Source: Streptantibioticus ferralitis
GTDB taxonomy: Bacteria; Actinomycetota; Actinomycetes; Streptomycetales; Streptomycetaceae
Direction: 5' to 3'
Assembly: GCF_029223525.1 (NCBI RefSeq)
Contig: NZ_JARHTQ010000045.1
Coordinates: 1 to 48,550 of the forward strand
DNA: 48,550 bases
The notes beneath the pieces were generated by a model, which saw only the letters and a list, made by a program, of their open reading frames with translations, searched no databases and was not told the DNA's origin. Positions 4,761 through 21,560 of the stretch are shown here, in pieces (position 1 is the stretch's first letter; each line of letters begins with the position of its first letter). Both the position numbers and the translations under genes were made by a program.

Positions 4761-5723
4761 ATGAAAGCCGTCGTGATCAGGGAGTTCGGAAACGCCGATG
4801 GTCTGGAAGTCGTCGACTTGCCCGTGCCCGTACCTGCCCCGGGGCAGGTACGGATCGCCACGGAGGCGATCGGGGTAGGCGGTGTAGACGCCGTGATCCG
4901 CCGGGGAACGCTCGCCCAGTACGGCTTCCGGGAGGGCCATCTCCTTGGCAGCGAGGTAGCGGGAAGCGTCACCGCGCTGGGAGAGGGCGTGGACGCCTCG
5001 TGGATGGGGCGCCGGGTGTGGGCCTTCACCGGCCTGGCCGGTGGGTATGCCGAGCAGGCCGTCGCCTCGGTCGAGGACGTCCTTCCGCTGCCTGACGGCC
5101 TGACCGGTGCCGATGCGGTGACTCTGGGCGGCTCCGGTGTGGTCGCCCACTTCGCCCTGGACCGAGCCCGTTTCGCGCCCGGCGAGACGGTGCTCGTGCG
5201 CGGTGCGGCGGGCAGCATCGGGATCACGGTGGTCCAGCTTGCAGCCAGGGGCGGTGCGGGCGCGGTGGCGGTCACCACCTCGTCGGCGGAGCGTGGCGCC
5301 CGCCTGCGGGACCTGGGCGCGACCCATGTCCTCGACCGCTCCGGCGAGGGCGGCTCTGACGCGCCGTCGGGTTTCGACGTGGTGATCGATGTCGTGGCAG
5401 GTCCGCAGCTTTCCCTTTTCCTGGACAGGCTGAACTCCAACGGGCGGTACGTGGCTGTCGGTGTGGCCGGTGGGCGGCCGTCGGCAGACTTCGGCATGCG
5501 GCTGATGGACGCCTTCCGCAGGTCACTGTCGTTCGCCACCTTCAGCGCGGACACCGTGCCCGGCCCCGACAGGCAGGCCGTGCGGTCGTCCCAGTTCGTG
5601 GATGCCGCACACGGGGAACTGCGCACGGTCACGCACGAAGTGCTACCGCTGGACCAGGCGGTGCTGGCCCACCGCGAGATGGACGCGGGCAAGGTGTTCG
5701 GCAGGGTCGTGCTGACTCCCTGA
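4761..5723 (+). CDS. NADP-dependent quinone oxidoreductase-like (MDR superfamily)
   Basis: A 320-residue medium-chain dehydrogenase/reductase. The start MKAVVIREFGNADGLEVVDL is typical of the quinone oxidoreductase branch. The nucleotide-binding loop appears as VLVRGAAGSIGITVVQLA. No structural or catalytic zinc cysteines are visible, which points to the zinc-free NADPH quinone reductase type. Divergent from TetR 3957-4595 with a palindrome between, so it is likely induced by a small reactive compound. Substrate unknown. Confidence 0.9.
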   Translation: MKAVVIREFGNADGLEVVDLPVPVPAPGQVRIATEAIGVGGVDAVIRRGTLAQYGFREGHLLGSEVAGSVTALGEGVDASWMGRRVWAFTGLAGGYAEQAVASVEDVLPLPDGLTGADAVTLGGSGVVAHFALDRARFAPGETVLVRGAAGSIGITVVQLAARGGAGAVAVTTSSAERGARLRDLGATHVLDRSGEGGSDAPSGFDVVIDVVAGPQLSLFLDRLNSNGRYVAVGVAGGRPSADFGMRLMDAFRRSLSFATFSADTVPGPDRQAVRSSQFVDAAHGELRTVTHEVLPLDQAVLAHREMDAGKVFGRVVLTP

Positions 5724-9067: not shown

Positions 9068-9422
9068 GGTCACCCGCGTGAGCCCCCTGCGGTGTGCTGG
9101 TGGGCACGGATAGAGGTGGAGTCGATGTTGATGTTCCAGTCGACATCGCCCCTTGCGTCGGTGAGGGCCTGGACGTGCTGGAGCAGCCGCTCCCAGGTGC
9201 CGTCGGCCGACCACAGCATGTGCTGTTTGTGAATGGTCTGCCAGGGGCCGAATCGTGCGGGTAACTGGTGCCACTGGCAACCGGTCCCGAGCTGATGGAT
9301 GATCCCGTTGATCACTTGGCGGCGGTCCCGCCATCGGCATCGGCCGCACCGGTTGCTACTCCTGGGGAGTAGCGGCTCAAGCACTGACTACTCGTCATCT
9401 GTGAGATCCCCCCTGCTGGGCA
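9068..9422 (-). pseudogene. IS5-family transposase remnant
   Basis: Read from ATG 9422 the product is MPSRGDLTDDE, then a TAG where the family has Trp, then SVLEPLLPRSSNRCGR and VINGIIHQLGTGCQWHQLP, with the first DDE aspartate in NINIDSTSIRAHQH. The reading ends about 100 residues in, before the second catalytic Asp and the Glu. It has therefore both a nonsense codon and a 3' deletion and cannot be active. Confidence 0.8.
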
Positions 9423-9438
9423 TGACCAGATCGCTCCT

Positions 9439-10296
9439 CTAGGCGGCGATGCTGTCCGCGAGCTGGTCGGCGACGCTGCGCGGCTCACGGCCGAGCAGTT
9501 CCGCCAGCAGAGGGTCGACGCCGGCGAAGCGACCCTCGCGGGCCGCCTGGAATGTGGTGGGCGCCATCCGTGCCATCGTCTCCGGCGTGCCGGTTGCGAC
9601 CTTGTCCGCGATCCACTCCTCATCGTCCATCACGATGCGCTTGACCTCACGGTCACTGATCTTGGATGCCATGGCGGCGATGTCGTCGAACGTCACGGCC
9701 TGGCGTGCGGTGAGCGTGACCGGACCGTCGAACGTCCCGTCACCGGCCAGGATGACCGCTGCCGCTTCGGCGGCGTCGGCGCGGTCGGTCCAGGAAATGG
9801 GCCCGTCGGCCGGGGCCGTGATCGTGCCGGTCTGCTGCCAGGGGCCAAGCAGCCAGCCCAGGCTGTGGGCGTAGAAGCCGTTGCGCAGCGAGGTCCAGGC
9901 GACGCCGGAGTCGGCGAGGAGCTTTTCGGTGGCGGCGTGGTCGCGCGCCGGGTGGAAGGGGCTGTCGGCGCCGGCACCCTGGTGGCTGGTGTAGAGGATG
10001 CGCCGGGCTCCCGCTGCGACGGCGGCCTCGATGCCGACGCGGTGCAGGGCGACCGCGTCGGCGTACGGGTCGTTGGAGGAGACGAGCAGGACCTGCTCGG
10101 CGCCCTCGAAGGAGTGGCGCAGCGCGGCCGGGTCCTCGTAGGAGCCCTGGCGTACCCGTACTCCGCGGTCGGCGAAGTGCGGTGCCTTGGCGGCGTCACG
10201 GACGCTGACACCGATCTGCTCCGCGGGGACTCGTTTGAGGAGGTGCTCGACGGTGGCGCCGTTCAGTGCACCGGTTGCACCAGTGACAACGATCAT
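9439..10296 (-). CDS. NmrA-like NAD(P)-binding reductase (QorB-type)
   Basis: A 285-residue atypical short-chain dehydrogenase. The N-terminus MIVVTGATGALNGATVEHLL is the nucleotide-binding GxxGxxG loop with Ala/Leu substitutions. SHQGAGADSPFHPARDHAATEKLL, given here as SHQGAGADSPF and HAATEKLL, lies where QorB/NmrA proteins place their quinone or regulator site, without the classical YxxxK. It lies 51 nt downstream of a TetR gene on the same strand, so the two may be co-transcribed. Likely an NADPH:quinone reductase or a redox-sensing protein. Confidence 0.87.
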   Translation of the reverse strand: MIVVTGATGALNGATVEHLLKRVPAEQIGVSVRDAAKAPHFADRGVRVRQGSYEDPAALRHSFEGAEQVLLVSSNDPYADAVALHRVGIEAAVAAGARRILYTSHQGAGADSPFHPARDHAATEKLLADSGVAWTSLRNGFYAHSLGWLLGPWQQTGTITAPADGPISWTDRADAAEAAAVILAGDGTFDGPVTLTARQAVTFDDIAAMASKISDREVKRIVMDDEEWIADKVATGTPETMARMAPTTFQAAREGRFAGVDPLLAELLGREPRSVADQLADSIAA

Positions 10297-11154: not shown

Positions 11155-11937
11155 TCAGTACCGGGCGCTGCGAAGGTTCTGCCACGCCTGTTCCGGATGA
11201 GCGTCCCAGTGCTGACGGAGAGCTTCTTCCCGGGCCGAGTACCGGCCCTGGTGGCACAGGCCGCTGTGGAAGATGTTGATGTTCATGCTCAGCGGAGTGT
11301 CACCGGTCACCCAGTGCGGCGTCAGGGCGTGGCTCCACAGCATGTCGCCCGGCTCCATTTTGGCGGACAGTCGTTCGGCGGGGTCATGGGCCGGAGGTAC
11401 CTCGGCCGCGATCTCGGCGTTGACTACAGCCGAGGCCGGCGCCATCCGGTCAGGGTCTCTGTAGCTATTGAAGATCTTGGTGCCCTCCACCTGCCACACC
11501 AGTCCGTTCGGGTTGTCCACGTGGTAGGTGGAGCTGCACCTGTGGCCCGATATGAAAAGTGCGGGGGCGCACCGTTGCCAGGTGAAGCCCTGGGCGGCCA
11601 GGAACGTTCGCCACGGGATCATGACCTTGGTCTGGAAGTCGTGAAGCCAGTTGCCGTAGAACCGGCTGAGGTTGAAGTGGACGAGTCTGAAGGGCCAGGT
11701 TGCGATCTCTTCGACGGGCGCGGTGCGGACGGCCAGGACCCTGGCCGTCCGCACCGCGGGTTCGCCGTCGCCCAGAATCGTGATCTTCGTTTCCGGGTCC
11801 TTTCGGAGGAGATCAAGCACCTCCTGTGCCGGGGGGAACGTGTACGCGAACGGGATCATGGTGGGGGCGATCCTGAAGTTCGGCGGAGTCCGCCAGCTCG
11901 CGGTGAATTCCTCACGTGTCGTCACTAGTCGTAGCAT
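11155..11937 (-). CDS. JmjC/cupin-8-like 2-oxoglutarate/Fe(II) oxygenase
   Basis: A 260-residue protein with a double-stranded beta-helix layout. The iron triad is visible as H139 and D141 in STYHVDNPNG and H208 in ALTPHWVTG, with the family's QVEGTKIF and MEPGDMLW strands between. JmjC-type enzymes hydroxylate or demethylate protein and peptide side chains. Its ATG overlaps the stop of the clan CD peptidase gene (TGATG), so the two are translationally coupled. Inference: it hydroxylates the candidate precursor at 14242-14427 or a product of it. Last gene of the locus. Confidence 0.82.
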   Translation of the reverse strand: MLRLVTTREEFTASWRTPPNFRIAPTMIPFAYTFPPAQEVLDLLRKDPETKITILGDGEPAVRTARVLAVRTAPVEEIATWPFRLVHFNLSRFYGNWLHDFQTKVMIPWRTFLAAQGFTWQRCAPALFISGHRCSSTYHVDNPNGLVWQVEGTKIFNSYRDPDRMAPASAVVNAEIAAEVPPAHDPAERLSAKMEPGDMLWSHALTPHWVTGDTPLSMNINIFHSGLCHQGRYSAREEALRQHWDAHPEQAWQNLRSARY

Positions 11938-14123
11938 CAGGCGGGCTCCAAGGATTCGGGCAGCACAGTGGAGGCGTCATCTTGTCGACCGGATGAGTAA
12001 TGGGTGACGGCGCTGCCGGCCGCAGGCGGACCGGCCGCTGCGGCGACCACGGTGATGGGACGGTTCACCGTCCACAGGTCCCCGTCGCATACGACGGCGG
12101 CACTCAGGTAATAAACACCCACAGGTGTCTCCCGATCCACCGCTACGGTCAATTCGAACGACGGCATCGAATGCTGGCCCGGCAGAAGGCAGATTTCGGC
12201 CTCCGGACCGCCCGAACCCATATTCCACGGGACATGGGCGAATACCAGCCGGGCGGCGAGTTGACGGACCTCACCGGTCGGGGACTGCTCGAAAACACCG
12301 TCCAACCTGTACGTGGTGCTCTCACCGGCCCGGCAGGTCGCAGGCCCCCGCAGGGAGAGCAGCCGAATTCCGTCGGAGGTGTCCGCCACCGGGCCGCAGC
12401 CGGAACAGGTTGTTCTGCGCCGCCGGTGCCCCGAACCTGGCAGGAAGACCTCGGAACTGTCCTGTGGGGAACCGCAGTAGGGACACCTGCCCTCCTCGTC
12501 CCACTGCGCGAGCAGCACGGCCTCGCGCTCGTAGAGGAAGCTGAGGACGGGGCCGCGATCCCGGCAGTAACGGGTGGTGAAGTCAAGTAGTGCCCGGTGC
12601 AGTCCAGTCCAGCGCTGCGCCTCGTCGACGGCGAGCCCGGTCAGATGCGACACCGTACCGTTGAGCAGTGGTGCCCCCTTCGACGAGGCGGCCAGAGCCG
12701 CCGCGTGGTATCGCAGTTCCCAGGACAATTCCGCTTCCAGGGCTTCTGCCCGGCCCGGATCGGTAGCACCGTCCTCACGGGCGAGTTCGACCATGCGCAG
12801 CGACGAGCGCAGACCGGCGAGCCGACTCCAGACGGACTCGACCATGCGTACCGCCGCCGGGGCCTGCGCCCGGTCGTCCGCCCGCAGGGTGACCTCGACC
12901 GACTCGGCACCCGTGTACAGGAGGACGCCTCGCTCCGAACCACGGATGCCGCGCAGCAGCAACCGCTCCTGTTCGACCGGTCGGCCCGCACCGGGGGCGG
13001 CGGTGAGGTAGCAGGCGGTTCCGTCGGGAAGTGCCAGTACCCGCAGGTCGCCGGGGGCCAGGGTAATCCGGGCAGGTGGGCCCCCGCCCCTGCCTGTGTT
13101 CCGGAGGTCGACCGGTCCTTCGTGTCCTGCGTCGTCAGGGGACCGCCAGTCCGGGTCGCCGTAGAGCATCCAGGGCGCACCAGCACCATTGCGCAAGGTG
13201 GCCCGGTTCAGTTCGAGGCAGACGTCACCGAGCCGGTGGCCGGCGCGGTTCAGCGCGAGCGCGTACAGCAACAGCGAATCGTCGGCCTCCACACTCCTGA
13301 ACGGCGTGAGGACGTTGTGGACGTTGTCTCTGGCGAGGAGCTGGTGGATAAGGGCGTACTCGACGTCGAACATCCAGCCGTCGCCGGGCCCGCCGAAGCA
13401 GGTCTGCCATACCAGGACTTCGGCGGCGAGACGGCGCGGGTGAACGAGCGGTGGATCAACGAGCACACTGCCGTTCCGGTGGGCTCGTGCGCAGGGGCCT
13501 CCGGCGACGCAGGTCGGGTGCCGCCCGTCGAGCACCGGAACACTGTGGCTGGTCGGCCGGCGTCGGTCGTCAGCCAGTGGGCAAAGGACGCCAGTGCCGA
13601 GAGGTGCGTCCAGGCCGTTGCTGTGGGTGGCCAGTCCGAGGAGCCGGTACCCGCGAGTGGCTTCGTCCGCGCTGCGTGGATCGTCGAAGGCCCGGATACG
13701 CAACCACTCGCCCGCACCGGGCTCGGTCCCGGAGAAGCCGAACTGACTGGTAGCCGTCGCGCCGGAAAGAAATTCCCGCCCAGTGACCCCGGCCAGCCGG
13801 TCGAGTCGGCGCCGCACCGCACGCCGTCCGCCGGTCGTGGCGATGAAGCCGATACGGCGGTCCATGCTCGTCGCGGCTACCAGGAATTCGTGCAGTCGGC
13901 CCGTCGGGGTGTCTGGGGAGAGCGCGAGAAGGACGACGTCCTCCTCCTTGCCGTGCTTCAGCGGCAGGTTGCGGATATCGCCGGATGGGCAGGCCACCAC
14001 ACGGTGGATGTTCGGGTCGGCTGCCTCCCTCACGGAGTCCAGCGCGGCGCCCATCACGTGAATGGTCTTGCGTTGGTTGTCGATCTCGGTCTCCAGGACG
14101 AGTGGACGGCGGCACGAAGCCAC
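11937..14123 (-). CDS. Caspase-like (clan CD) cysteine peptidase with zinc-ribbon and beta domain
   Basis: Up to 728 residues. Features in order: an alpha/beta region with a hydrophobic strand ending in His-Ser-Asn-Gly (GLATHSNGLDAPLG, H167); a strand ending in the likely nucleophile Cys (VLVWQTCFGGPGD, C242); the segment WMLYGDPDWR, like the LxGDPxLR of gingipain/CHAT-type peptidases; a long helical region; a four-Cys zinc-ribbon (CPYCGS ... CSGCG, about 540-570); and a C-terminal Ig-like beta domain. Clan CD peptidases cut after one specific residue. In this RiPP-like locus the inferred role is leader removal. The GTG at 14123 sits only 6 nt from a large hairpin and lacks a clear ribosome site; GTG 14057 or ATG 14054 are alternatives. 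Confidence 0.72.
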   Translation of the reverse strand: MASCRRPLVLETEIDNQRKTIHVMGAALDSVREAADPNIHRVVACPSGDIRNLPLKHGKEEDVVLLALSPDTPTGRLHEFLVAATSMDRRIGFIATTGGRRAVRRRLDRLAGVTGREFLSGATATSQFGFSGTEPGAGEWLRIRAFDDPRSADEATRGYRLLGLATHSNGLDAPLGTGVLCPLADDRRRPTSHSVPVLDGRHPTCVAGGPCARAHRNGSVLVDPPLVHPRRLAAEVLVWQTCFGGPGDGWMFDVEYALIHQLLARDNVHNVLTPFRSVEADDSLLLYALALNRAGHRLGDVCLELNRATLRNGAGAPWMLYGDPDWRSPDDAGHEGPVDLRNTGRGGGPPARITLAPGDLRVLALPDGTACYLTAAPGAGRPVEQERLLLRGIRGSERGVLLYTGAESVEVTLRADDRAQAPAAVRMVESVWSRLAGLRSSLRMVELAREDGATDPGRAEALEAELSWELRYHAAALAASSKGAPLLNGTVSHLTGLAVDEAQRWTGLHRALLDFTTRYCRDRGPVLSFLYEREAVLLAQWDEEGRCPYCGSPQDSSEVFLPGSGHRRRRTTCSGCGPVADTSDGIRLLSLRGPATCRAGESTTYRLDGVFEQSPTGEVRQLAARLVFAHVPWNMGSGGPEAEICLLPGQHSMPSFELTVAVDRETPVGVYYLSAAVVCDGDLWTVNRPITVVAAAAGPPAAGSAVTHYSSGRQDDASTVLPESLEPA

Positions 14124-14129
14124 GACTAT

Positions 14130-14167
14130 GGGCTTTCCCGGCCGACTCCCGTCGGCCGGGAAAGCCC
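14130..14167 (-). terminator. 17-bp perfect hairpin between precursor and peptidase genes
   Basis: The 17-nt arms GGGCTTTCCCGGCCGAC and GTCGGCCGGGAAAGCCC pair perfectly. On the minus-strand RNA the loop is GGGA, a GNRA tetraloop. No U-tract follows. Its place after a short precursor gene suggests a partial terminator or an mRNA 3'-end stabiliser that sets a high precursor-to-enzyme ratio. Confidence 0.75.
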
Positions 14168-14198
14168 TTGTCGGGTGGGCGGTGGTCCCGGATCAGGT

Positions 14199-14217
14199 CG
14201 TCGTGATGCTCACGACG
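14199..14217 (-). terminator. Second, smaller hairpin after the precursor gene
   Basis: CGTCGTG and CACGACG form a 7-bp perfect stem with a 5-nt loop, 25 nt downstream of the precursor stop codon and 32 nt before the larger hairpin. Confidence 0.5.
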
Positions 14218-14241
14218 CAACCTGACGCGGAAACCGGGGGC

Positions 14242-14427
14242 TTACCAGAAGCACAGGGGCGTGACGATTTCGGCCTTCTGCGAAGCGCTGGCCGACACCT
14301 GCTGGCCCTGCTGCGGGTGGGGCGTGGCGGCGCGCGCCGTGGCCACCGGGATCGCGGCCAGCGCGGCCACACCCGCAGCGATCGCTGTGGCGCGGGTAAC
14401 AGATTTCTTGAGCTGAGAAATATTCAT
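14242..14427 (-). CDS. Candidate RiPP precursor peptide with secretion-type leader
   Basis: A 61-residue peptide. AAGGAG lies 10 nt before ATG 14427; an upstream in-frame ATG at 14487 lacks this. Residues 1-33 look like a Sec signal: K7, K8 and R12, a hydrophobic stretch 13-28, then an A-x-A cleavage motif (A31-R32-A33). The rest is Gln/Ser/Ala-rich, and the chain ends VTPLCFW with Cys59, Phe60 and Trp61 at the C-terminus. It is the only short gene in the block, has its own AT-rich upstream region, and is flanked by radical SAM, oxygenase and peptidase genes. This makes it the best candidate substrate. Family not recognised. It could instead be a small secreted protein. Confidence 0.65.
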   Translation of the reverse strand: MNISQLKKSVTRATAIAAGVAALAAIPVATARAATPHPQQGQQVSASASQKAEIVTPLCFW

Positions 14428-14656
14428 GTCAACCGGACTCCTTGGTGATCCGTTTCGACGGTTTTCGTCGAGAGACCCGATAATCATTCGCCGCAGATGG
14501 ATATGGCGCCCGAATAATCAGGGCCACTCGACGGAATTTACATTAGCCATCGACTTTGCATTACGCAAGCCGAATTCTCGGAAAAGCGGGCAGCGCGTTT
14601 CCTGTCCTCGGGTTTCTGACTTCTTTACTGAATTCCGCTTCCAGAATCTCCGGGGC
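14428..14656 (-). promoter_or_regulatory. AT-rich upstream region of the candidate precursor gene
   Basis: This 229-bp gap is visibly richer in A and T than its surroundings, the only such stretch inside the cluster, and it ends in the precursor's AAGGAG site. Possible weak hexamers on the minus strand are TTGCGT, 17 nt, TAATGT (about 14537-14565). It probably holds a separate promoter for the precursor. Confidence 0.45.
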
Positions 14657-15427
14657 TTATTCCATGGCTGCCTCCGAGGCTTGACGTGCCCCGCCGGACC
14701 TGAACACCACTGCGGCGTTCCCGGAGAGCGCGGCGCGTGCCACGGCGTACGGAGCGCCAAGGGAGCCGGATCCCACAGCGGTGCGGTCAGCCACGATAAA
14801 TTCGGCGATCTCCCGCTTTGCGGCGGGTCCGACCGGTTCCGCGGCAAAAGTGACGGCCACCTGTCGGCGTACTCGGCCGCCGATTGCCGCGCGCTGGAGC
14901 CGGGGTTCAAGGGCGATCACGTCCCCGGGGCCGGTCTCGATCGCCCAGCCGGGTACCTCCGCTTCAGGGAAATCGTCGATCCGGTAGCTTCCGGGTGACC
15001 GGTGCGACCCGGGCAGGACCAGCACTGCCCCGTCCCGCGCGCCGAGGGGGCGATCGTGTAGTACGAACGTGACCAGCCGAGCGCTCCGGAGCAAGGTGCC
15101 GCCGTGCCAGGAGATGTCACCGCGGTATTCGCTCGCCTCTCCGAAAAGGCAGAGGACGGAGGAATCGAGAAGGCCGGCGGCAATATCGGCGAGACCCGAT
15201 GCCGAGACGGCCCTGGTCAGAGCCGGGGAGGCGCCCGGATGATCCACGATGGACCGGTGTTCGGTGTTTTTGCTCAACCGATTCCCCACCGGGGAACCCT
15301 CCTCGATCTCGCGGAAGACATCTCCGGCGAAATCACCGAGCAGCCCCGGGAAGACCTCGAATCCGAAGAGCTCGTACCGCGCGCGGCGCCGAGTGACCTC
15401 TTCCGCCGATTCGTTTGCTTCGGCCAT
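14657..15427 (-). CDS. PhyH-like protein lacking two iron ligands
   Basis: A 256-residue homologue of the neighbouring PhyH oxygenase: both share FGF near the start, a GA-LRV/LVL-PGSH strand, PGDVI and a late RRQ. Where the neighbour has W-H-S-D this protein has W-H-G-G (H108, G110), and where the neighbour has the distal His this one has Arg179. Only one of the three iron ligands is left, although the 2OG-binding Arg region (RRQVAVTF) is kept. HxG alone would recall Fe/2OG halogenases, but those keep the distal His. The likelier reading is a non-catalytic partner or regulator of the PhyH enzyme. The ATG is 1 nt after the upstream stop. Confidence 0.75.
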   Translation of the reverse strand: MAEANESAEEVTRRRARYELFGFEVFPGLLGDFAGDVFREIEEGSPVGNRLSKNTEHRSIVDHPGASPALTRAVSASGLADIAAGLLDSSVLCLFGEASEYRGDISWHGGTLLRSARLVTFVLHDRPLGARDGAVLVLPGSHRSPGSYRIDDFPEAEVPGWAIETGPGDVIALEPRLQRAAIGGRVRRQVAVTFAAEPVGPAAKREIAEFIVADRTAVGSGSLGAPYAVARAALSGNAAVVFRSGGARQASEAAME

Positions 15428-15428
15428 G

Positions 15429-16115
15429 TCAGGAGAACCTCACAGAGCCGCTCACGAAGCGGTTGAGGATGTACCGGGCAGTGGCCCTGCGTTCGGGTTC
15501 GCTCCGGGGCGGTCGGGTGAAGTTCCAGGCCCATTGGCGCCGTGCCGCGCCGCCCCAAGCGGAGTGGAGGATGTTGGTGTTGAAGACGATGACATCGCCC
15601 GGCTCGCAGTCGATGACAGTGGCGGGAATCTCCTCGCCGGCGAGGCCGAGTTCGCTGTCGTGCCGCATCAGCGTGCGGACGGCGGCTCCCTGCCAGCCCG
15701 AGCCAGGCAGATGGGATCCCGGGATGACTCGCAGCGCGCCGTTGCCGGCATGCAGCCTCTCTCCGTAGACCACGGCCCGCAGGTACAGGCCGTGGTCGTA
15801 GAAGCCGTCGGAGTGCCAGTACGAGTCTCCGACCAAGCGGTTCACATCGCTGGACACCATGGAGACGGCCTGCGCCGCCGTCAGGACCTCCCTCAGCGCG
15901 GGCGCGCGTCCGATGACGGCCATGCGCTCGTCACGCTCGACGGCATGGAAGCAGGTGGAGCGCCTGACCGGGCTGGGATCCGGCAGGAGTGTGCGGAACA
16001 CCTCGTCCAGCGTCAGCAGGAGGGGGGTCGCGTCGCCCGGCAGTACGCAGAAGCCGAACCTTTCGAGCTGCCTGGTGCGCTGCCTGGCCGGAGTCGCAGT
16101 CGCGGCCGTGGTCAC
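15429..16115 (-). CDS. Phytanoyl-CoA dioxygenase-family (PhyH) 2OG/Fe oxygenase
   Basis: A 228-residue PhyH-fold enzyme with a complete active site: H101 and D103 in SYWHSDGFYDHG, H184 in VFNTNILHSAW, and Arg192/193 for 2-oxoglutarate. GALRVIPGSHLPG is the family's signature strand and turn. The start is the GTG of the GTGA overlap with the aldo/keto reductase stop, so translation is coupled. PhyH enzymes hydroxylate, epimerise, desaturate or halogenate small molecules and peptides. In this setting the peptide is the likely substrate, and the degenerate homologue encoded 1 nt downstream may act with it. Confidence 0.85.
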   Translation of the reverse strand: MTTAATATPARQRTRQLERFGFCVLPGDATPLLLTLDEVFRTLLPDPSPVRRSTCFHAVERDERMAVIGRAPALREVLTAAQAVSMVSSDVNRLVGDSYWHSDGFYDHGLYLRAVVYGERLHAGNGALRVIPGSHLPGSGWQGAAVRTLMRHDSELGLAGEEIPATVIDCEPGDVIVFNTNILHSAWGGAARRQWAWNFTRPPRSEPERRATARYILNRFVSGSVRFS

Positions 16116-16879
16116 TGAGTCGCCTTTCCGGTCGCGTACCGCAGGACAGCGCTGTACTCGGCCATTTGCTGTGGGGTACGGGGCGCTATGACGACCGCCC
16201 ACGGGTCGTATCTGGACACGGTGGCGTGGAATGCCTCGCCGATCAGGCGGATCCGGCGTTCGGGCGGAAGCCCGTCGAAGGCGGCACCGCCGGAGAACAG
16301 GCTCCGGACGATGAGGCGGTGTCCAGCGTTGGCAAGGCGCACTGCGAGCCCCCGCCGTCGGTCGAGCAGGGCGGCCTCGACCATCACAGGCATAGGCACC
16401 GGCACCGGCACGTCCAGCAGCAGCTCGACCTCTTCTCCGGTGAGGACCGAGGCGCCCAGTGCGTCGGCCGGTCCGTTCACGACCATCAGTTCGTACAACT
16501 GCCTCCAGTCCAACGACCGCAGGACCTCCGCCGTGGGGTTGTGGACGAAGACGCACTCAACCGACGTCCGTCGAAGCCGTCGGCAGGACCCCTGCAACGT
16601 CGCCAGCATGCCGGGAACGCTGTAGTCCAGCCGGGGCAGAACTCCGCCGATGTCCACCCCCACCTTGGTCCACACCCGGGAGGCGGCAGGGCCACCGGAC
16701 CGGCCGAGATCCCACTCAGCCTGGCCGCGGGCGTAGACCGGCGCCGTGTCGAACAGGTCCACCCCCAGGTGACGGGCCGCGTCCAGCAACCGTGACGCCC
16801 CTACGGCGTCACGGTTCAGCACCATCAGGCCGTCGAAGTGCCCGGACATTCGCATCGTGCCGAGGGCTATGTGTGGCAC
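16112..16879 (-). CDS. Short aldo/keto reductase within the RiPP-like locus
   Basis: A 255-residue AKR with the full catalytic tetrad: D44 and Y49 (LFDTAPVYARGQAE), K72 (RVWTKVG), H113 (CVFVHNP). It is shorter than usual AKRs (about 300-330), mostly at the C-terminal cofactor end, which still shows VVIAPRTPQQMAEY. The GTG start lies inside the end of the radical SAM gene (13-nt overlap) with GGAGGAC just before it. Expected reaction: NAD(P)H reduction of a carbonyl, or the reverse. A carbonyl made on the peptide by one of the oxygenases is an attractive but unproven substrate. Confidence 0.87.
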   Translation of the reverse strand: MPHIALGTMRMSGHFDGLMVLNRDAVGASRLLDAARHLGVDLFDTAPVYARGQAEWDLGRSGGPAASRVWTKVGVDIGGVLPRLDYSVPGMLATLQGSCRRLRRTSVECVFVHNPTAEVLRSLDWRQLYELMVVNGPADALGASVLTGEEVELLLDVPVPVPMPVMVEAALLDRRRGLAVRLANAGHRLIVRSLFSGGAAFDGLPPERRIRLIGEAFHATVSRYDPWAVVIAPRTPQQMAEYSAVLRYATGKATQ

Positions 16880-18285
16880 TGTCCGTCCTCCCCGCAGACA
16901 AGCGCGCAGGTAGGTCCCACGGGCGCCGGCGATCGCCTCATGGCGGCCAGCGAGTCCCGGATGGAATCGCGCGGCCGTAGCACGGAGACCTCGTGTCGCC
17001 GGTCGTATGGGCACAGCCGCAGCATCCCCCTCGGCGAGACATAGCCGCGGGTGCTGACGCAGCTCCGGTGCTCGTTCTGCGATGGTCCGCCGCAGATGGC
17101 AACCGCCGGGCACCGCTCGCAGTCCTGGAAGGGATAGAGCGTCTTGGCGGCACGGCCCAGTTTTGCGTTGTCTGCTCGGATCTCATCCAGGGTGAATATG
17201 AACCGAGGATCACGCCAGTTCAGGTCCAGTACACTGATACGTCCCCCGGGCAGGAGCGCCACATTGACTCCGCCGTCCTCCTGGATGTGCTCGTACACCC
17301 GAGGCCGACGGGAGTCCAGGCTCTGGTAGATGCGGTCCAGGTGAGAGAAAAGCATGCCGCCCTGGGAGATTGCCCGCATCCGGGCCTCGAAGAGGTTGCG
17401 GGCAAGGTCGGGGCCGTGTGCTATCCAGGCCCCGTGAGAGGGGATGGGCGTATTGACGTAGATGAATCGGATGCCGAGGGACATCACGTAGTCGACGATC
17501 TCGGTGAGATTCCCCACGTTCCAGTCCGTGGGGGTGACATTGGCGCCGACGTGCACACCGGAGTCGATCATGCGCTTGATGTTGCGGTGGATTCGTTCGT
17601 CCGCCGGTTTTCCGGACAGCAGGACCCGCTCAAGACTGTTGGTGGCGGGTGGTCCATCGATGGAGACGCCGACACCGTATCCGTACTCAAGGAAATGGTC
17701 GATCAACTCGGGGCGTATCTGCGCACCATTGGTCACCACCGTGGGCTGGATCCTGGCGACACCCTTTTCCGCGGCGAGTTCGCGGGCGTAGGCGTCGCCG
17801 GCTCGCATGAGGTCGTGCCTGATCGTCGGCTCTCCGCCGAACCACTGGTATGTGACCTCCGCACGCCCCTGGTTGACCTCGAACAGCAGGTCGAGACCTT
17901 GACGGAGTTGCTCCTCCGTCATGTCCGGGTTGCCGGTGTTGGTGTCCACGAAGCAGTAGCTGCACTTCATGTTGCAGCGGTCGGTAACGACGATCCGGTA
18001 TCCGGCGATATGGCTGGGAGCTGAGCGTATCCCCATGTCCTGAAGCCGGTTTGTGACGGATTCTGAGAAATTTGCGGGTGGGGCAGCCGAGTTGGGCGGG
18101 GCGAATCCGAAGCGGGCGAGATCCGCGACGATCGAGTCGCCGGACTCCCGGACTGCGGTGGTCTCGTCCTCCGTGAGGTAGACGGTTTCCAGGCGCACCG
18201 GATCGAACATCGCCGCGCCGTTGCCGAGGCCGATGAGAAAGTAGTTTCCCCACACCTGCTCGATCTCATGGGGTGCCGTGGTCAT
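16867..18285 (-). CDS. Radical SAM/SPASM peptide maturase
   Basis: A 472-residue protein from ATG 18285, which has GAGGGAG 7 nt upstream. An N-terminal segment (1-95) resembles the peptide-recognition region of other maturases. The radical SAM CxxxCxxC is C104-C108-C111 (RCNMKCSYC), with GGEP at 150-153 and VSIDGPP at 207-213. The SPASM Cys set is C389, C392, C398, C409, C425. Three more Cys sit in an extra C-terminal tail (C460, C464, C470; CALVCGEDGQC). SPASM enzymes install thioether, C-C cyclophane or ether cross-links in RiPPs. The Cys, Phe and Trp at the precursor's C-terminus are plausible targets. Confidence 0.9.
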   Translation of the reverse strand: MTTAPHEIEQVWGNYFLIGLGNGAAMFDPVRLETVYLTEDETTAVRESGDSIVADLARFGFAPPNSAAPPANFSESVTNRLQDMGIRSAPSHIAGYRIVVTDRCNMKCSYCFVDTNTGNPDMTEEQLRQGLDLLFEVNQGRAEVTYQWFGGEPTIRHDLMRAGDAYARELAAEKGVARIQPTVVTNGAQIRPELIDHFLEYGYGVGVSIDGPPATNSLERVLLSGKPADERIHRNIKRMIDSGVHVGANVTPTDWNVGNLTEIVDYVMSLGIRFIYVNTPIPSHGAWIAHGPDLARNLFEARMRAISQGGMLFSHLDRIYQSLDSRRPRVYEHIQEDGGVNVALLPGGRISVLDLNWRDPRFIFTLDEIRADNAKLGRAAKTLYPFQDCERCPAVAICGGPSQNEHRSCVSTRGYVSPRGMLRLCPYDRRHEVSVLRPRDSIRDSLAAMRRSPAPVGPTCALVCGEDGQCHT

Positions 18286-18428
18286 GGATGAACTCCCTCG
18301 CCGAAAAATTTCCTGCCACCGGACTGCCCTGGCGCCGGAGCCAGCCGGAGGACGCGCGAGGCCGGGCGACATCCCGGTCTCGCGCGGCGCGGTACCCCGC
18401 CGACTCCCGGCCACGTGCTGACGCAGGG

Positions 18429-18800
18429 TCAGCCCTGGGCTGCCTCTTCCTGGCCCTCGATCGACAGGCCGAGCCCGGATATGACCTCGGCGACCTTCTC
18501 GGTGTAACGGGACTTCAGGACCTCGCTGTTCTCCGGCGTGGCGCCGTCCGCGAGCACGATGATCCCCGGGAGAGAGGGGTTGGGCGCCATGACGACGATG
18601 CCCGGCGGATCGATGCTGACAGCCATGATGGCACCGTCCAGGGTGACCCAGTCGATGTTGTCCTTCAGCTTTTCCATGACGACGCTCTGGTGTGTTTGGA
18701 ACGCCTCACGCTCCCCGAACCAGACGCCCGACTTCCCTCGCGAACCAACCGCGTCCGCGTAGAGCAGATGATTGTCCTTGTGCTGACGTGAAATCGCCAT
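18429..18800 (-). CDS. 123-residue protein of unknown family, first gene of the maturation block
   Basis: AAGGAG lies 7 nt before ATG 18800. The product is soluble, with no signal or membrane segment: a polar N-terminal third, a central beta-rich stretch (IDWVTLDGAIMAVSID and GIVVMAPNPSLPGIIVLAD), and a C-terminal helix (SRYTEKVAEVISGLGLSI). No Cys and no precursor-like repeats are present. It lies 143 nt upstream of the radical SAM gene on the same strand. It could be a recognition or partner protein for the maturase. I do not recognise the family. Confidence 0.75.
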   Translation of the reverse strand: MAISRQHKDNHLLYADAVGSRGKSGVWFGEREAFQTHQSVVMEKLKDNIDWVTLDGAIMAVSIDPPGIVVMAPNPSLPGIIVLADGATPENSEVLKSRYTEKVAEVISGLGLSIEGQEEAAQG

Positions 18801-18988: not shown

Positions 18989-20041
18989 TCACGGTCGTGA
19001 CTCGGCTCTGGAGTTGAGCGTGTCCTTGATGACCGCCGCGGTCTCCCGCACCGCCACGGTGTCCGGATGCCCCGGGCCGAGCAGCCGAGTCCGCCGCGCC
19101 AGAACGTCCTCGGCGAGCCGCAGCGCGTCCCGCTGCCGACCTGCCGTCGCCCAGCGCGAGGCCAGGCCGTGGGCTGCGAGCAGCGTGTCGGGGTGATCCG
19201 CGCCGAGCACCCGGCGGCGGCGCGCGAAGACGTCCTCAGCCAGGGAGCAGGCGCGGGTGGGGTCACCGGCGGCGTCGGCTGCGCGGGCCAGGTACGTCAT
19301 GGTCCGCCAGGTGTCCGGGTGGTCGAGGCCGAGTTCCCGGCTCCAGATCCGGTGCAGTTCGTCGAGCCGACCCAGCGCGCGGCAGTGGTCACCGCGGTCC
19401 ATGGCGTACCAGCATGCCTCACGGGCCACGTCGTGAGCGCGGCTGTCGCTCAGCACTGCGGGATCCACCGCCAGAAGATGCGGCAGCAGCCTGGCCCAGG
19501 TCGGCCATGTGGCGGGGTCGGACACCTGGCCGGGCGCGGCGGCGATCAGCAGCGCCCGCACCTCGGCGTCGGTCACGGACGGCACATGACTGTCGACGTA
19601 TGAGCGCCGGCTCCGGCCTCGCAGCAGGACCCGGGTGAGCGGATAGAGGGTCAGCGAACCGTCGCGGGCCTGCGCGAGTGCGTATCGGTCGAGGGTGGCC
19701 AGCGCCTCCGCGACCGCAGCTCTGGTTCGCGGCAGGCGCCCCGACTTCCGTTCGGCCGGGAGGGCTGGCACGCACGCACGCAGCGGGAAAGGGTCGGGGG
19801 CCAGCATCGCGCAGGCACTTAGCACGGTTGCCGCGCTCGGGTGCCGTAGCGACAGTTGTCGCAGTGCCACCACGGTCCGAGCCGTCTCCAGGACGGAGTG
19901 GGCGTCGGGTCGGCCCTCGGTGCGGACCTCTTCGACCACCTTCGCCGGCAACTCCCGGTGCCGACGTGCCGTCAGCCCGTCGCCCCGCAGCGCGGCCACC
20001 TCCGCAACGCGCCAGGGGGTCGTGTCACCGGTCGGGGGCAT
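18989..20041 (-). CDS. TPR-repeat protein, STAND/FxsT-like C-terminal half
   Basis: A 350-residue protein from ATG 20041 (GGAG 7 nt upstream; ATG 20059 is possible). The first 170 residues look like the helical/winged part that follows NB-ARC in STAND proteins (LSACAMLAPDPFPLRACVP, then LATLDRYALAQARDGSL, LYPLTRVLL). The rest is kinesin-light-chain-type TPRs with the repeated GxxHPDTxxxxxxLA signature. Such proteins accompany some radical SAM cyclophane RiPP systems as FxsT; that link is a resemblance, not proof. It overlaps the end of the NB-ARC gene by 17 nt, so the pair may act as a split STAND regulator. Confidence 0.75.
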   Translation of the reverse strand: MPPTGDTTPWRVAEVAALRGDGLTARRHRELPAKVVEEVRTEGRPDAHSVLETARTVVALRQLSLRHPSAATVLSACAMLAPDPFPLRACVPALPAERKSGRLPRTRAAVAEALATLDRYALAQARDGSLTLYPLTRVLLRGRSRRSYVDSHVPSVTDAEVRALLIAAAPGQVSDPATWPTWARLLPHLLAVDPAVLSDSRAHDVAREACWYAMDRGDHCRALGRLDELHRIWSRELGLDHPDTWRTMTYLARAADAAGDPTRACSLAEDVFARRRRVLGADHPDTLLAAHGLASRWATAGRQRDALRLAEDVLARRTRLLGPGHPDTVAVRETAAVIKDTLNSRAESRP

Positions 20042-21560
20042 CTGGCTGCTCCAACTCATAGAGGCGGACCAGATCGCGTACCCGGTACCGGGGCGCTCCG
20101 CCCTGCGTGGCGGCAGGCTCGACGGTGGCCAGCCAACGGTCGACCAGCCGTTCGGCGGCGGTTTCAGTCTGATGGTCGGCTAGGCCCAGTCTGGCGGCCA
20201 CCTCGTCACTCGCCCAGGATCCACCGGGTATTCGACTCAAGGCCCGTAGCACGCGGCGCTCGATCGGAGAGAGACTGCCGTGGCTCAGGGCGAGACTGTC
20301 CCGTATGTTGAGATCCCCGATCTCCAGGCGGTCCAGTCGGTACCGCTCGTCGGCTAGCAGTGCGGCCAGCTCGGCGAGCGTACGGTGCGGCCGGACGGCG
20401 AGCCACTCGGCGGCGATCCGCAGGGCCAGCGGCAATCCCGCGCAGTGATGCGCGATACAACGCACGGCTGCCGGATCCTGGCCTGCCCGATCGCCGAGCA
20501 GCGTCCGCAGGAAACGGTCCGACGCCGCGCCGTCCAGTTCCCGTAGTTCGACGGTACGGCAGCCGAGGGCGACCAGTCGGCGGCGGCTGACCACGATGAG
20601 GGCGCTTCGCTGACTGTTCGTCAGCATAGGGCGGATCTGGGCTTCGGAAGCCGCATTGTCGACAACGAGCAGCACCTGACGGGCGGCCAGTTGGGACCGT
20701 ACGGCGGCTGCTCGCTCTTCGAAACTGTCCGGGACCCCGGGCACGGCCAGCGAGCGCAGCACTCTGGCGAGGGCTTCGGCCGGCAGCATGCAGCCGCCCG
20801 CCGCATCGTGCAGGTCGAGATAGATCTGCCCGTCCGGGAACATTGTGCGCAGCCGGTGGGCGACATGTACCGCCAGCGTGGTGGCACCGACCGCGGAGGG
20901 ACCGGACACCACCGCCACCCGCGGGACGCTGGCAGGCCGCCCCGTCGGCGGCCCCGGGGGGCCACCGAGCCAGCCGTACAGCTCGGCGGCCGGCTGGAGG
21001 TGCGCGTCCAGTCCGGGCACGCAGGCAGGCAACTCGCACCGTACGGCCGGGCCGGCCACGGCGGGGGGTGTCGCGGCCGGTCGGCCCCGCGCCGGTACGG
21101 ACGCTGGATGCGGCTGCGCCGCCGACTCCTCCTCGGAGCCGGGGGGCCCGTCGGCAACGCAGTCCGGTGTCGGACCGGGAACGGGAACGTTCCGGGGACC
21201 GGCCAGCGGGCCGTGAAGTTCCGTGGAAACCGCCGGGGCCTGCGACGAGAACCCCGACGCGTGCAAGAATTGGGTGAAGTCGGAGCCGGTCAGTTTGAGG
21301 GCCTGCGCCAGCAGGACCACCGATCGCAGTCGCGGGCTGGTCCGCTCCCTCTCGAGGTCACTAATGGACCGGGTGCTCAGCGAGGATAATTCCGCGAGGT
21401 CGTCCTGAGTGAGCCTGGCGCGGAGCCGATTCCCGCGTAACAGAGAGCCAAAACGCTCCCCCCGCGCGATGGGAACGCTCGTCAAGGCGGAGAGTCCGGA
21501 CGTCGTCTCCTCACGGCTCCGCGCCGCGGGCCGTCGATTGCCATTCGCCACGTCCCTCAC
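20025..21560 (-). CDS. XRE-HTH NB-ARC regulator with degenerate Walker A
   Basis: A 511-residue protein. Residues 37-92 form an XRE helix-turn-helix (RFGSLLRGNRLRARLTQDDL, then STRSISDLERERTSPR). A Pro/Ala-rich linker follows, and the NB-ARC domain starts near 195. The P-loop reads GPSAVGATTLA, with Ala226 where the ATP-binding Lys should be; Walker B is LLVVDNAAS. A winged-helix end (PRYRVRDLVRLYELE) closes the domain. AfsR/SARP-related and STAND regulators of secondary metabolism share this plan, which suggests control of the adjacent locus. The GTG start at 21560 is uncertain; a second GTG lies nine bases further on. Confidence 0.83.
   Translation of the reverse strand: MRDVANGNRRPAARSREETTSGLSALTSVPIARGERFGSLLRGNRLRARLTQDDLAELSSLSTRSISDLERERTSPRLRSVVLLAQALKLTGSDFTQFLHASGFSSQAPAVSTELHGPLAGPRNVPVPGPTPDCVADGPPGSEEESAAQPHPASVPARGRPAATPPAVAGPAVRCELPACVPGLDAHLQPAAELYGWLGGPPGPPTGRPASVPRVAVVSGPSAVGATTLAVHVAHRLRTMFPDGQIYLDLHDAAGGCMLPAEALARVLRSLAVPGVPDSFEERAAAVRSQLAARQVLLVVDNAASEAQIRPMLTNSQRSALIVVSRRRLVALGCRTVELRELDGAASDRFLRTLLGDRAGQDPAAVRCIAHHCAGLPLALRIAAEWLAVRPHRTLAELAALLADERYRLDRLEIGDLNIRDSLALSHGSLSPIERRVLRALSRIPGGSWASDEVAARLGLADHQTETAAERLVDRWLATVEPAATQGGAPRYRVRDLVRLYELEQPDAPDR

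Follow-up and report, generated by a model that had tools for sequence, protein, structure and literature searches.

The DNA region analyzed here (hereafter the window) comprises 48,550 nt of Streptantibioticus ferralitis (assembly GCF_029223525.1, contig NZ_JARHTQ010000045.1, positions 1–48,550 of the forward strand) and carries a gene cluster built around a radical SAM enzyme (rSAM). As shown in Table 1, eight open reading frames (ORFs), all on the minus strand, span positions 11155–18800. A preliminary description of this DNA proposed that the cluster produces a ribosomally synthesized and post-translationally modified peptide (RiPP) from a 61-aa peptide ending in Cys-Phe-Trp (the CFW peptide). 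The results presented below point to another substrate, the conserved protein x, and suggest that the window contains a rearranged cluster, probably in decay, from a rare RiPP-like family of streptomycetes; in one branch of this family the product may inhibit aspartyl-tRNA synthetase (AspRS).

Table 1. Features of the window and putative T-box leaders of AspRS genes in other loci.
Feature	Sequence	Position	Strand	Remarks
Protein x, 123 aa	window	18429–18800	−	operon-starting conserved protein; likeliest precursor; YAD motif in N-terminal arm; predicted folded alpha-beta4-alpha domain
Fused radical SAM gene, 472 aa	window	16867–18285	−	rSAM1 to residue 410 + in-frame last ~60 residues of rSAM2 (tblastn vs relatives)
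Aldo-keto reductase (AKR), 255 aa	window	16112–16879	−	PF00248, 7.5e-9; alignment with L010, L020, L042
PhyH-A, Fe/2-oxoglutarate oxygenase family, 228 aa	window	15429–16115	−	PF05721, 3.7e-7; HxD...H kept (alignment)
PhyH-B, 256 aa, PhyH-A paralogue	window	14657–15427	−	two of three iron ligands lost; fast evolution
CFW peptide, 61 aa, signal-peptide-like, ending LCFW; orphan	window	14242–14427	−	Shine-Dalgarno site, GC3; no homologue found
Hairpin, 38 nt	window	14130–14167	−	between CFW peptide gene and peptidase gene
Putative His/Cys peptidase with zinc ribbon (from residue 547), up to 728 aa	window	11937–14123	−	analogue in L010, L020; no family or fold support
JmjC/cupin-like oxygenase, 260 aa, type B kind	window	11155–11937	−	iron ligands kept; HxD...H alignment
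T-box leader, Asp (GAC) specifier	L011	14491–14730	−	
T-box leader, Asp (GAC) specifier	L044	2596–2833	+	
T-box leader, Asp (GAC) specifier	L046	4972–5206	+	
T-box leader, Asp (GAC) specifier	L043	5812–6049	+	
T-box leader, Asp (GAC) specifier	L079	10511–10729	−	

The GC content at third codon positions (GC3; 0.75–0.86) is of the coding type in all eight ORFs, which, together with the gene spacing, bears out the earlier view that these are closely spaced genes. The likely starts of rSAM, AKR and PhyH-A lie at 18285, 16879 (GTG) and 16115 (GTG), respectively, while the putative peptidase gene begins with a GTG at 14123, directly after the hairpin (ATG at 14054 is a possible alternative). Neighboring genes overlap by 13 nt (rSAM/AKR) or 4 nt (AKR/PhyH-A), are 1 nt apart (PhyH-A/PhyH-B) or share 1 nt (peptidase/JmjC). 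Three of the proteins exceed the Pfam cut-offs: rSAM (PF04055, 2e-15), AKR and PhyH-A (values in Table 1). No informative match in Pfam or NCBIfam was obtained for x, the CFW peptide, PhyH-B or the large zinc-ribbon protein. PADLOC analysis of the window for anti-phage defence yielded only viperin models, i.e. a generic radical SAM match, and defence was rejected as a function of the cluster.

Relatives of the cluster were sought with the rSAM sequence as the only bait; x was not used in the search. Of 297 genomes of the window's family, six (the window's own included) matched at 1e-40. Among GTDB contigs 32 rSAM loci were confirmed, 11 of which are close (L010–L020, all Streptomyces, E 1e-125 or better); the other 21 are distant (E 8e-20 to 4e-4), gave no match to the other cluster queries and were dropped. 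A plasmid search found no plasmid-borne copy. The resulting set contains 16 relatives (L010–L020 and L042–L046), or 17 loci counting the window.

In all 17 loci the gene of protein x directly precedes rSAM1 (tblastn), and trees of rSAM1 and of x both separate, with full support, two types. Type A comprises four loci, i.e. the window, L010 (S. boncukensis), L020 (S. fimicarius) and L042, which forms a long branch; type B comprises 13 (L011–L019 and L043–L046). The gene order is x, rSAM1, rSAM2, AKR, PhyH-A, PhyH-B in the type A relatives and x, rSAM1, rSAM2, JmjC, with overlapping rSAM genes, in type B. Each of the 16 relatives encodes a full-length rSAM1 (423–442 aa) and a second enzyme, rSAM2, likewise of full length (279–326 aa; lengths from the first matched residue). 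In L010 and L020 a large zinc-ribbon protein is additionally encoded ahead of x and the cluster ends with a GNAT protein, and L042 carries YcaO (1e-72), TfuA (4e-34), a P450 and a C39-peptidase ABC protein. The rSAM-AKR-PhyH-PhyH block noted in the preliminary description is thus kept in L010, L020 and L042. The further claim that the gene set matches no described family also held: no curated family covers it, and no description was found in the literature searched, in which subscription journals are poorly covered. The family, seen in Streptomyces and other genomes of the window's family only, appears to be rare and undescribed.

Compared with these relatives, the window copy is altered. tblastn analysis revealed that its rSAM protein follows rSAM1 up to residue 410 and then immediately continues with residues 244–303 of rSAM2. 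The junction, placed by protein matches, is in frame and lies within the SPASM region, and the fused protein keeps the CX3CX2C and CX2CX5C motifs. The remainder of rSAM2, including its catalytic part, was not found in the window genome, which is 99% complete; the sole other match there has 25% identity (4e-4). The earlier assignment to radical SAM/SPASM enzymes was right as to the family, but the gene is a fusion and the second rSAM enzyme of all 16 relatives is missing, so that a complete pathway in the window was not borne out.

The alterations extend to the oxygenases. PhyH-B has HGG and QR where L010, L020 and L042 have HSD/HRD and H; it lacks two of the three HxD...H iron ligands, all of which are intact in these three relatives. 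Its identity to L010 (42.3%) is hardly above that to the distant L042 (41.5%), compared with 66.4% versus 44.4% for PhyH-A and 72.2% versus 56.8% for rSAM1. Given the ligand loss and this lack of closeness to L010, PhyH-B is evolving fast and has probably lost its activity as an iron enzyme. Of the three oxygenase-fold proteins originally listed, PhyH-A passes its Pfam cut-off and JmjC keeps its ligands, while PhyH-B has neither a family match nor its ligands; oxidation twice or more, as then proposed, is therefore not supported in full for the window copy.

The AKR retains the residues D, Y, K and H in the alignment with L010, L020 and L042, at positions that we take to be those of the catalytic tetrad. 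The window JmjC protein scores below both its Pfam cut-offs (its type B homologue in L011 passes Cupin_8), but HxD...H is invariant in all nine aligned JmjC proteins (the window and eight of type B). It is 58–67% identical to the eight type B proteins and 72% identical to that of a remnant locus, L115 (see below), and tblastn found no JmjC of this kind in the type A loci L010, L020 and L042. In sequence, the window cluster combines the core of type A with a JmjC resembling those of type B. With these alterations in mind, the window copy is probably worn or eroding.

The large zinc-ribbon protein was called a caspase-like peptidase in the preliminary description. It shares 28–29% identity with its analogues in L010 and L020, and His167, Cys242 and the zinc-ribbon Cys residues are common to all three. 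The motifs around His167 and Cys242 fit what we take to be the dyad of clan CD (caspase-like) peptidases; no peptidase match was found in Pfam, NCBIfam, PADLOC or PDB, and the structure model (pLDDT 36.7) was too poor for a fold search. The peptidase call thus stands on motifs, and the protein is referred to here as a putative peptidase.

The CFW peptide starts with ATG at 14427 and stops at 14242, within a longer frame that begins at 14487. Owing to its good ribosome-binding site (AAGGAG), its GC3 (0.81) and the hairpin behind it, it is probably a gene; its sequence reads as an export signal followed by ~27 residues. Conservation analysis did not bear out its proposed role as the precursor. 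Among the 17 loci tblastn (E ≤ 0.05) matched the window only, and a scan for similar C-termini in the relatives revealed three frames, none in operon position: TFW in L011, CWS inside rSAM1 of L013, and CWA in L044. At E 0.01, 17 of the 297 family genomes matched, the window's own included, the best of the other 296 reaching E 0.001; the matches cover parts of residues 4–59 inside frames of 118–1571 aa. The CFW peptide was rejected as the precursor on these grounds (no counterpart in the 16 relatives by tblastn and C-terminus scan, nor a good one in the other family genomes). The preliminary description had itself named a precursor-sized ORF covarying with the rSAM gene as evidence against the CFW peptide, and x is such an ORF in 17 of 17 loci. 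The window therefore warns against naming a precursor from position alone.

As expected of a gene-encoded RiPP precursor, x co-occurs with the enzymes in all 17 loci that contain a full rSAM1 or the window fusion; it is absent from the remnant loci L071 and L115, in which only the tail of rSAM1 is left. Across the 17 loci x is 116–127 aa long, with 37 of 127 alignment columns invariant, and contains no cysteine. In the structure model a domain folds with fair to good confidence and residues 1–20 are predicted to be unfolded. Comparison of 78 type B pairs revealed that the ratio of nonsynonymous to synonymous differences (pN/pS) is 0.19 for residues 9–33 versus 0.36 for residues 34–116. Within the N-terminal arm, position 14 is occupied by Tyr in 15 loci and by His in two (L044, L045), followed in every case by Ala15 and Asp16. 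Residue 19 is Asp in all 13 type B proteins (Val-Asp19-Ser) and Gly in all four of type A (Val-Gly19-Ser). No known family in NCBIfam or Pfam includes x, and neither Foldseek (best E 0.017, TBP-like) nor a sequence search of PDB (best E 0.18) identified a clear relative. In a sample of 396 genomes of the phylum, x was present in one, the window's own.

An arm that is predicted to be unfolded yet is more conserved than the fold fits a segment that is modified or bound by an enzyme. For this reason, and because of the YcaO-TfuA pair in one relative, x is the likeliest precursor, i.e. the ribosomal substrate, as judged from its sequence and model. A review attributes Tyr-Asp cross-links to YxdB, and cross-links at His to HaaB and YhhB (PMC11002830). 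The likeness of (Tyr/His)14-Ala15-Asp16 to such cyclophane sites supports, but does not show, a cyclophane in x.

Small ORFs were also surveyed for another hidden precursor. The type B operon is compact, with no room for a further peptide gene. Comparison of small ORFs between the genes of L010 and L020 gave nothing better than E 0.01 beyond three partial edge matches at known gene starts (2451–2711, 4836–4952 and 9848–9931; E 1e-5 to 1e-3). The conserved frames in the type B flanks (4 of the 13 loci as queries) overlap the regulator, phosphotransferase-like, AspRS and RlmN-like genes on either strand, or lie at the start of x or within the AspRS leader, which proved to be the T-box described below. 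As judged from the frames inspected, these gaps and flanks gave no convincing candidate, and this possibility was rejected for them. L042 contains ten small frames with a Shine-Dalgarno-like site, among which x alone is a separate gene in the operon. The others lie in or antisense to larger genes, except for a 41-aa frame (17626–17751) between genes for a glycyl-tRNA synthetase (GlyRS) and an ABC protein, which may be an alternative precursor.

Analysis of the type B neighborhoods revealed a recurrent second AspRS gene. It adjoins JmjC in ten loci (L011–L018, L043, L046), and in L044 and L045 an AspRS of another lineage (37–38% identical) lies 5–6 kb upstream of x. A second AspRS is thus found near all 12 type B loci with enough flank; the contig of the remaining one, L019, ends just after JmjC, and a similar AspRS match occurs at the end of another contig of that genome. 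The AspRS proteins of L011 and L046 pass both NCBIfam models of nondiscriminating aspartate-tRNA(Asn) ligases, and that of L044 passes NF003483 and falls below TIGR00458; we take these models to be of the archaeal type. A larger, AspRS-sized PF00152 match, putatively (by size) the housekeeping copy, was present in the two sets of genomes checked (9 + 5), seven with type B loci among them. Type B hence has both an extra divergent synthetase near the cluster and a presumably retained housekeeping copy, as looked for in self-resistance.

The L046-like AspRS was detected in 59 of the 297 family genomes, and since only two of these 59 have rSAM1, the nondiscriminating-type enzyme evidently also lives without the cluster. 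It seems to be a common accessory gene of the family, beside which other clusters may hide. Ten AspRS regions without an rSAM1 match at 1e-40 were retrieved, seven with no type B genes and three with broken ones. L070 keeps one piece of JmjC and L072 pieces of JmjC in two reading frames, while L071 retains the tail of rSAM1, an rSAM2 spread over two frames, and JmjC (x and the N-terminal part of rSAM1 lost). A search with JmjC matched 8 of the 297 genomes, one match being a further remnant, L115. Like L071, it retains the tail of rSAM1, rSAM2 matches in two frames, and JmjC; x and the N-terminal part of rSAM1 are lost here too, and no AspRS lies within its 19.9 kb.

Conservation of the ~210–275 nt preceding the L011 AspRS gene extends to the nine further loci with this AspRS and, at 81%, to the stretch before the unlike AspRS of L044; overall, the leaders of the two AspRS lineages are 80–83% identical in DNA. 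An Rfam scan of five sources at the gathering score listed no T-box, but in a permissive scan RF00230 matched over its full length in all five leaders tried: L011 (73.7 bits, 3.8e-16), L044 (70.0, 3.1e-15), L046 (85.0, 5e-17), L079 (77.0, 5.9e-15) and L043 (70.3, 3.2e-13). The default scan missed them because these scores are below the gathering score. In both alignments shown, the uuc of the model, which we take to mark the specifier place, is aligned to GAC, an Asp codon. GAAGAC and the box GGTGGNACNGCGAG occur in all 20 leaders extracted (22 loci tried; L074 and L077 were not caught by the search pattern). With GAC at the specifier place, the AspRS genes appear poised to respond to uncharged tRNA-Asp. 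The same leader precedes AspRS genes without cluster genes in L073, L075, L076, L078 and L079. No T-box was found in the type A loci L010, L020, L042 and the window. The window genome has no extra AspRS among its three PF00152 matches, as judged by their sizes.

A second, divergent synthetase is described for the producers of albomycin, mupirocin and indolmycin in a review (PMC9437257). Self-resistance fits the present case because a divergent spare AspRS, of two lineages with one leader, accompanies all type B loci with enough flank to judge and persists in three decayed ones; by analogy, this suggests that the second AspRS confers resistance to an AspRS inhibitor made by type B. In 7 of the 13 type B loci (L011–L016, L018) the AspRS gene is followed by an RlmN/Cfr-like radical SAM gene, whose L011 copy is below all cut-offs; this might be a second resistance gene or plain neighborhood.

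In type A, L042 encodes a fused alpha-beta GlyRS 3.5 kb from x. This enzyme is patchily distributed (18 of 297 family genomes) and absent from the window genome; eight of the other 17 copies were retrieved, and no cluster gene other than one weak GNAT match was seen beside them. It was not found in the genomes of L010 and L020 and is present in that of the type B locus L018. As a general mark of type A it was rejected, given its absence from L010 and L020, its presence with L018 and the copies elsewhere without the cluster.

We lean, without strong conviction, towards the explanation that the window cluster belongs, as a rearranged and probably eroding copy, to a rare RiPP-like family found in streptomycetes, in which x is the substrate and the type B product inhibits AspRS. 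In the pathway that we infer, the folded C-terminal domain of x would serve recognition and its flexible, conserved N-terminal arm would be modified. rSAM1, an enzyme of the SPASM type, would perform the first radical modification, most likely a three-residue cyclophane at (Tyr/His)14-Ala15-Asp16, and rSAM2 the second. The AKR and two PhyH oxygenases in type A, or one JmjC oxygenase in type B, would act next, and proteolysis would release a small product. That of type B would probably inhibit AspRS, the second AspRS being a resistant version that a T-box sensing uncharged tRNA-Asp turns on once the housekeeping enzyme is inhibited. In the window, where a type B JmjC, the putative peptidase and the orphan exported peptide are present, deletion of the rSAM2 catalytic domain and the probable death of PhyH-B would leave a reduced product or none. 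Gene content, conservation, the fusion, the ligand loss and the association with AspRS and T-box are read directly from the sequences; the role of x as substrate, all reactions, the target and the erosion are deduced from them.

Several observations weigh against this explanation. We infer, rather than observe, the modification of x, whose conserved arm could instead be the binding site of rSAM1, and x has neither a family nor a clear fold match. The T-box scores (70–85 bits) are below the Rfam gathering score of 93. Neither such an AspRS nor a T-box is seen in type A: PF00152 has one match each in the genomes of L010 and L020 and none near the cluster in genome G271 or in that of the window. 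rSAM1 is missing from 57 of the 59 family genomes with the AspRS and leader, and since type B loci share ancestry, an inherited neighborhood accounts for some of the association. The CFW peptide has the look of a genuine gene, and the rSAM fusion could be an assembly error, though its frame is open and its rSAM motifs are intact.

That the CFW peptide is the precursor, its C terminus being processed by rSAM, AKR, oxygenases and peptidase, is very improbable. Its gene does sit between the two blocks and is preceded by a good Shine-Dalgarno site, its GC3 is of the coding type, and the Cys-Phe-Trp at its C terminus could be cross-linked by an rSAM; against this, the relatives have no match to it though they keep rSAM1 and the oxygenases of their type, the other family genomes offer nothing better than E 0.001, it resembles an export signal, and its gene is set off by a gap upstream and followed by a hairpin. 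It is quite improbable that the fusion is an assembly artefact in a strain with a normal rSAM2. The contig is one of 110 in the assembly; the junction, nevertheless, is in frame inside the SPASM region, the missing part is absent elsewhere in a nearly complete genome (the 25% match is what any rSAM would give), and PhyH-B independently shows loss of function. It is rather unlikely that x acts as a partner protein, serving rSAM1 as carrier, chaperone or recognition factor, and that the substrate is a small molecule, an unlinked peptide or the product of a neighboring non-ribosomal peptide synthetase (NRPS). In favor of such a role, x is mostly folded and very conserved, unlike most precursors, an NRPS module occurs in L020, with homologous DNA in L010 inside a common island, and NRPS-like frames lie near L042. 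The type B operon, in turn, has no NRPS gene, the most constrained part of x is the arm predicted to be unfolded, and the YcaO-TfuA pair of L042 (RiPP-marker enzymes) points to a peptide substrate.

The view that the AspRS has nothing to do with the pathway, being a T-box-controlled accessory gene in an inherited neighborhood or one that feeds Asp-tRNA to a further step, is on the unlikely side, while deserving serious consideration. It draws on the 57 AspRS-carrying genomes without rSAM1 and on the five loci where the leader precedes AspRS with no cluster gene; it accords poorly with the unlike AspRS under the same leader on the other side of the cluster in L044 and L045, with the three decayed clusters that still adjoin AspRS, and with the self-resistance by a second, divergent synthetase known from producers of albomycin, mupirocin and indolmycin (PMC9437257). 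We consider improbable, as a whole, the broader idea of a new RiPP class with a folded 116–127-residue precursor, an arm cross-linked by rSAM1 and further modified by radical and oxygen chemistry, and products that inhibit aminoacyl-tRNA synthetases: AspRS in type B, with a T-box-switched resistant copy, and maybe another synthetase in type A, GlyRS in L042. The switch at residue 19 of x (Asp in type B, Gly in type A) matches the two synthetases. The GlyRS link is weak, as it concerns the single locus L042, where no T-box match was found, and the L010 and L020 genomes lack this GlyRS.

If x is indeed the precursor, this RiPP-like family would combine two radical SAM enzymes with a folded precursor of unusually large size. 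The AspRS/T-box association suggests a target before any product is in hand, which makes the function directly testable; we know of no ribosomal, rSAM-made inhibitor of AspRS. The window, for its part, illustrates how such a cluster is dismantled and recombined.

Several neighboring genes were observed beside the clusters. Just upstream of x, the minus strand of the window encodes a TPR protein (18989–20059) and an HTH/NB-ARC protein (20025–21560), with matches to AfsR, HaaT and FxSxx TPR models far below cut-off; they may represent a cluster regulator, split or truncated. A short frame at 9070–9384 (minus strand) beside the cluster resembles, by eye, a transposase remnant. In L010 (1–4603) and L020 (235–4760), NRPS DNA, in L020 with AMP-binding, carrier and condensation parts, is divergent from the zinc-ribbon gene. 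These stretches are 80–88% identical and lie within a common island that ends ≤2 nt from the GNAT stop codon, so an NRPS-RiPP hybrid is possible; sequence and PDB relatives of the L020 NRPS were found, from which no amino acid could be assigned. Near the type A cluster of G271 (L106:2697–7502, L042:18400–19899), a C39-peptidase ABC protein is followed by frames that resemble, by eye, NRPS condensation, carrier and adenylation parts.

Comparison with known systems revealed partial likenesses only. The best NCBIfam models for the window rSAM include PapB (96 bits, cut-off 340) and HxsB (83 bits, cut-off 370), and the same holds for rSAM1 of L010, all far below cut-off. PapB is the best match, but at that score, and with no Cys in x, the family does not qualify as a PapB-type ranthipeptide. 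His-Xaa-Ser (Hxs) systems likewise pair two neighboring rSAM genes with a small partner protein, with weak HxsB and HxsC matches here; their scores (HxsC 17 versus 268 bits) exclude membership in both families, and x has no His-Xaa-Ser repeat. Triceptide systems (YxdB, HaaB, YhhB, XncB, OscB) resemble the present family in that a SPASM rSAM gene adjoins one for a small conserved protein bearing an aromatic/His-X-Asp site. The aromatic/His-X-X target is found in x as YAD (15 of 17) or HAD (2 of 17), a three-letter motif that is weak alone. rSAM1 matches the AmcB, YhhB, GrrM and FxsB models weakly, all far below the curated cut-offs, and hence belongs to none of these known cyclophane-forming families. 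Unlike triceptide precursors, x is 116–127 aa long with a folded domain and a site near its N terminus, and a second rSAM and AKR/PhyH/JmjC are present.

TfuA clusters with rSAM, PhyH or P450 genes are reported in section 13 of PMC8120280, and the YcaO and TfuA of L042 recall such thioamide RiPP clusters with rSAM; the pair is seen in one of the 17 loci, and that section names no x-like precursor. As for producers of aminoacyl-tRNA synthetase inhibitors, albomycin, mupirocin and indolmycin are, to our knowledge, not rSAM RiPPs, and the type B case differs from theirs in that the target would be AspRS and resistance is deduced; like them, type B carries a second, divergent synthetase, here with a T-box leader.

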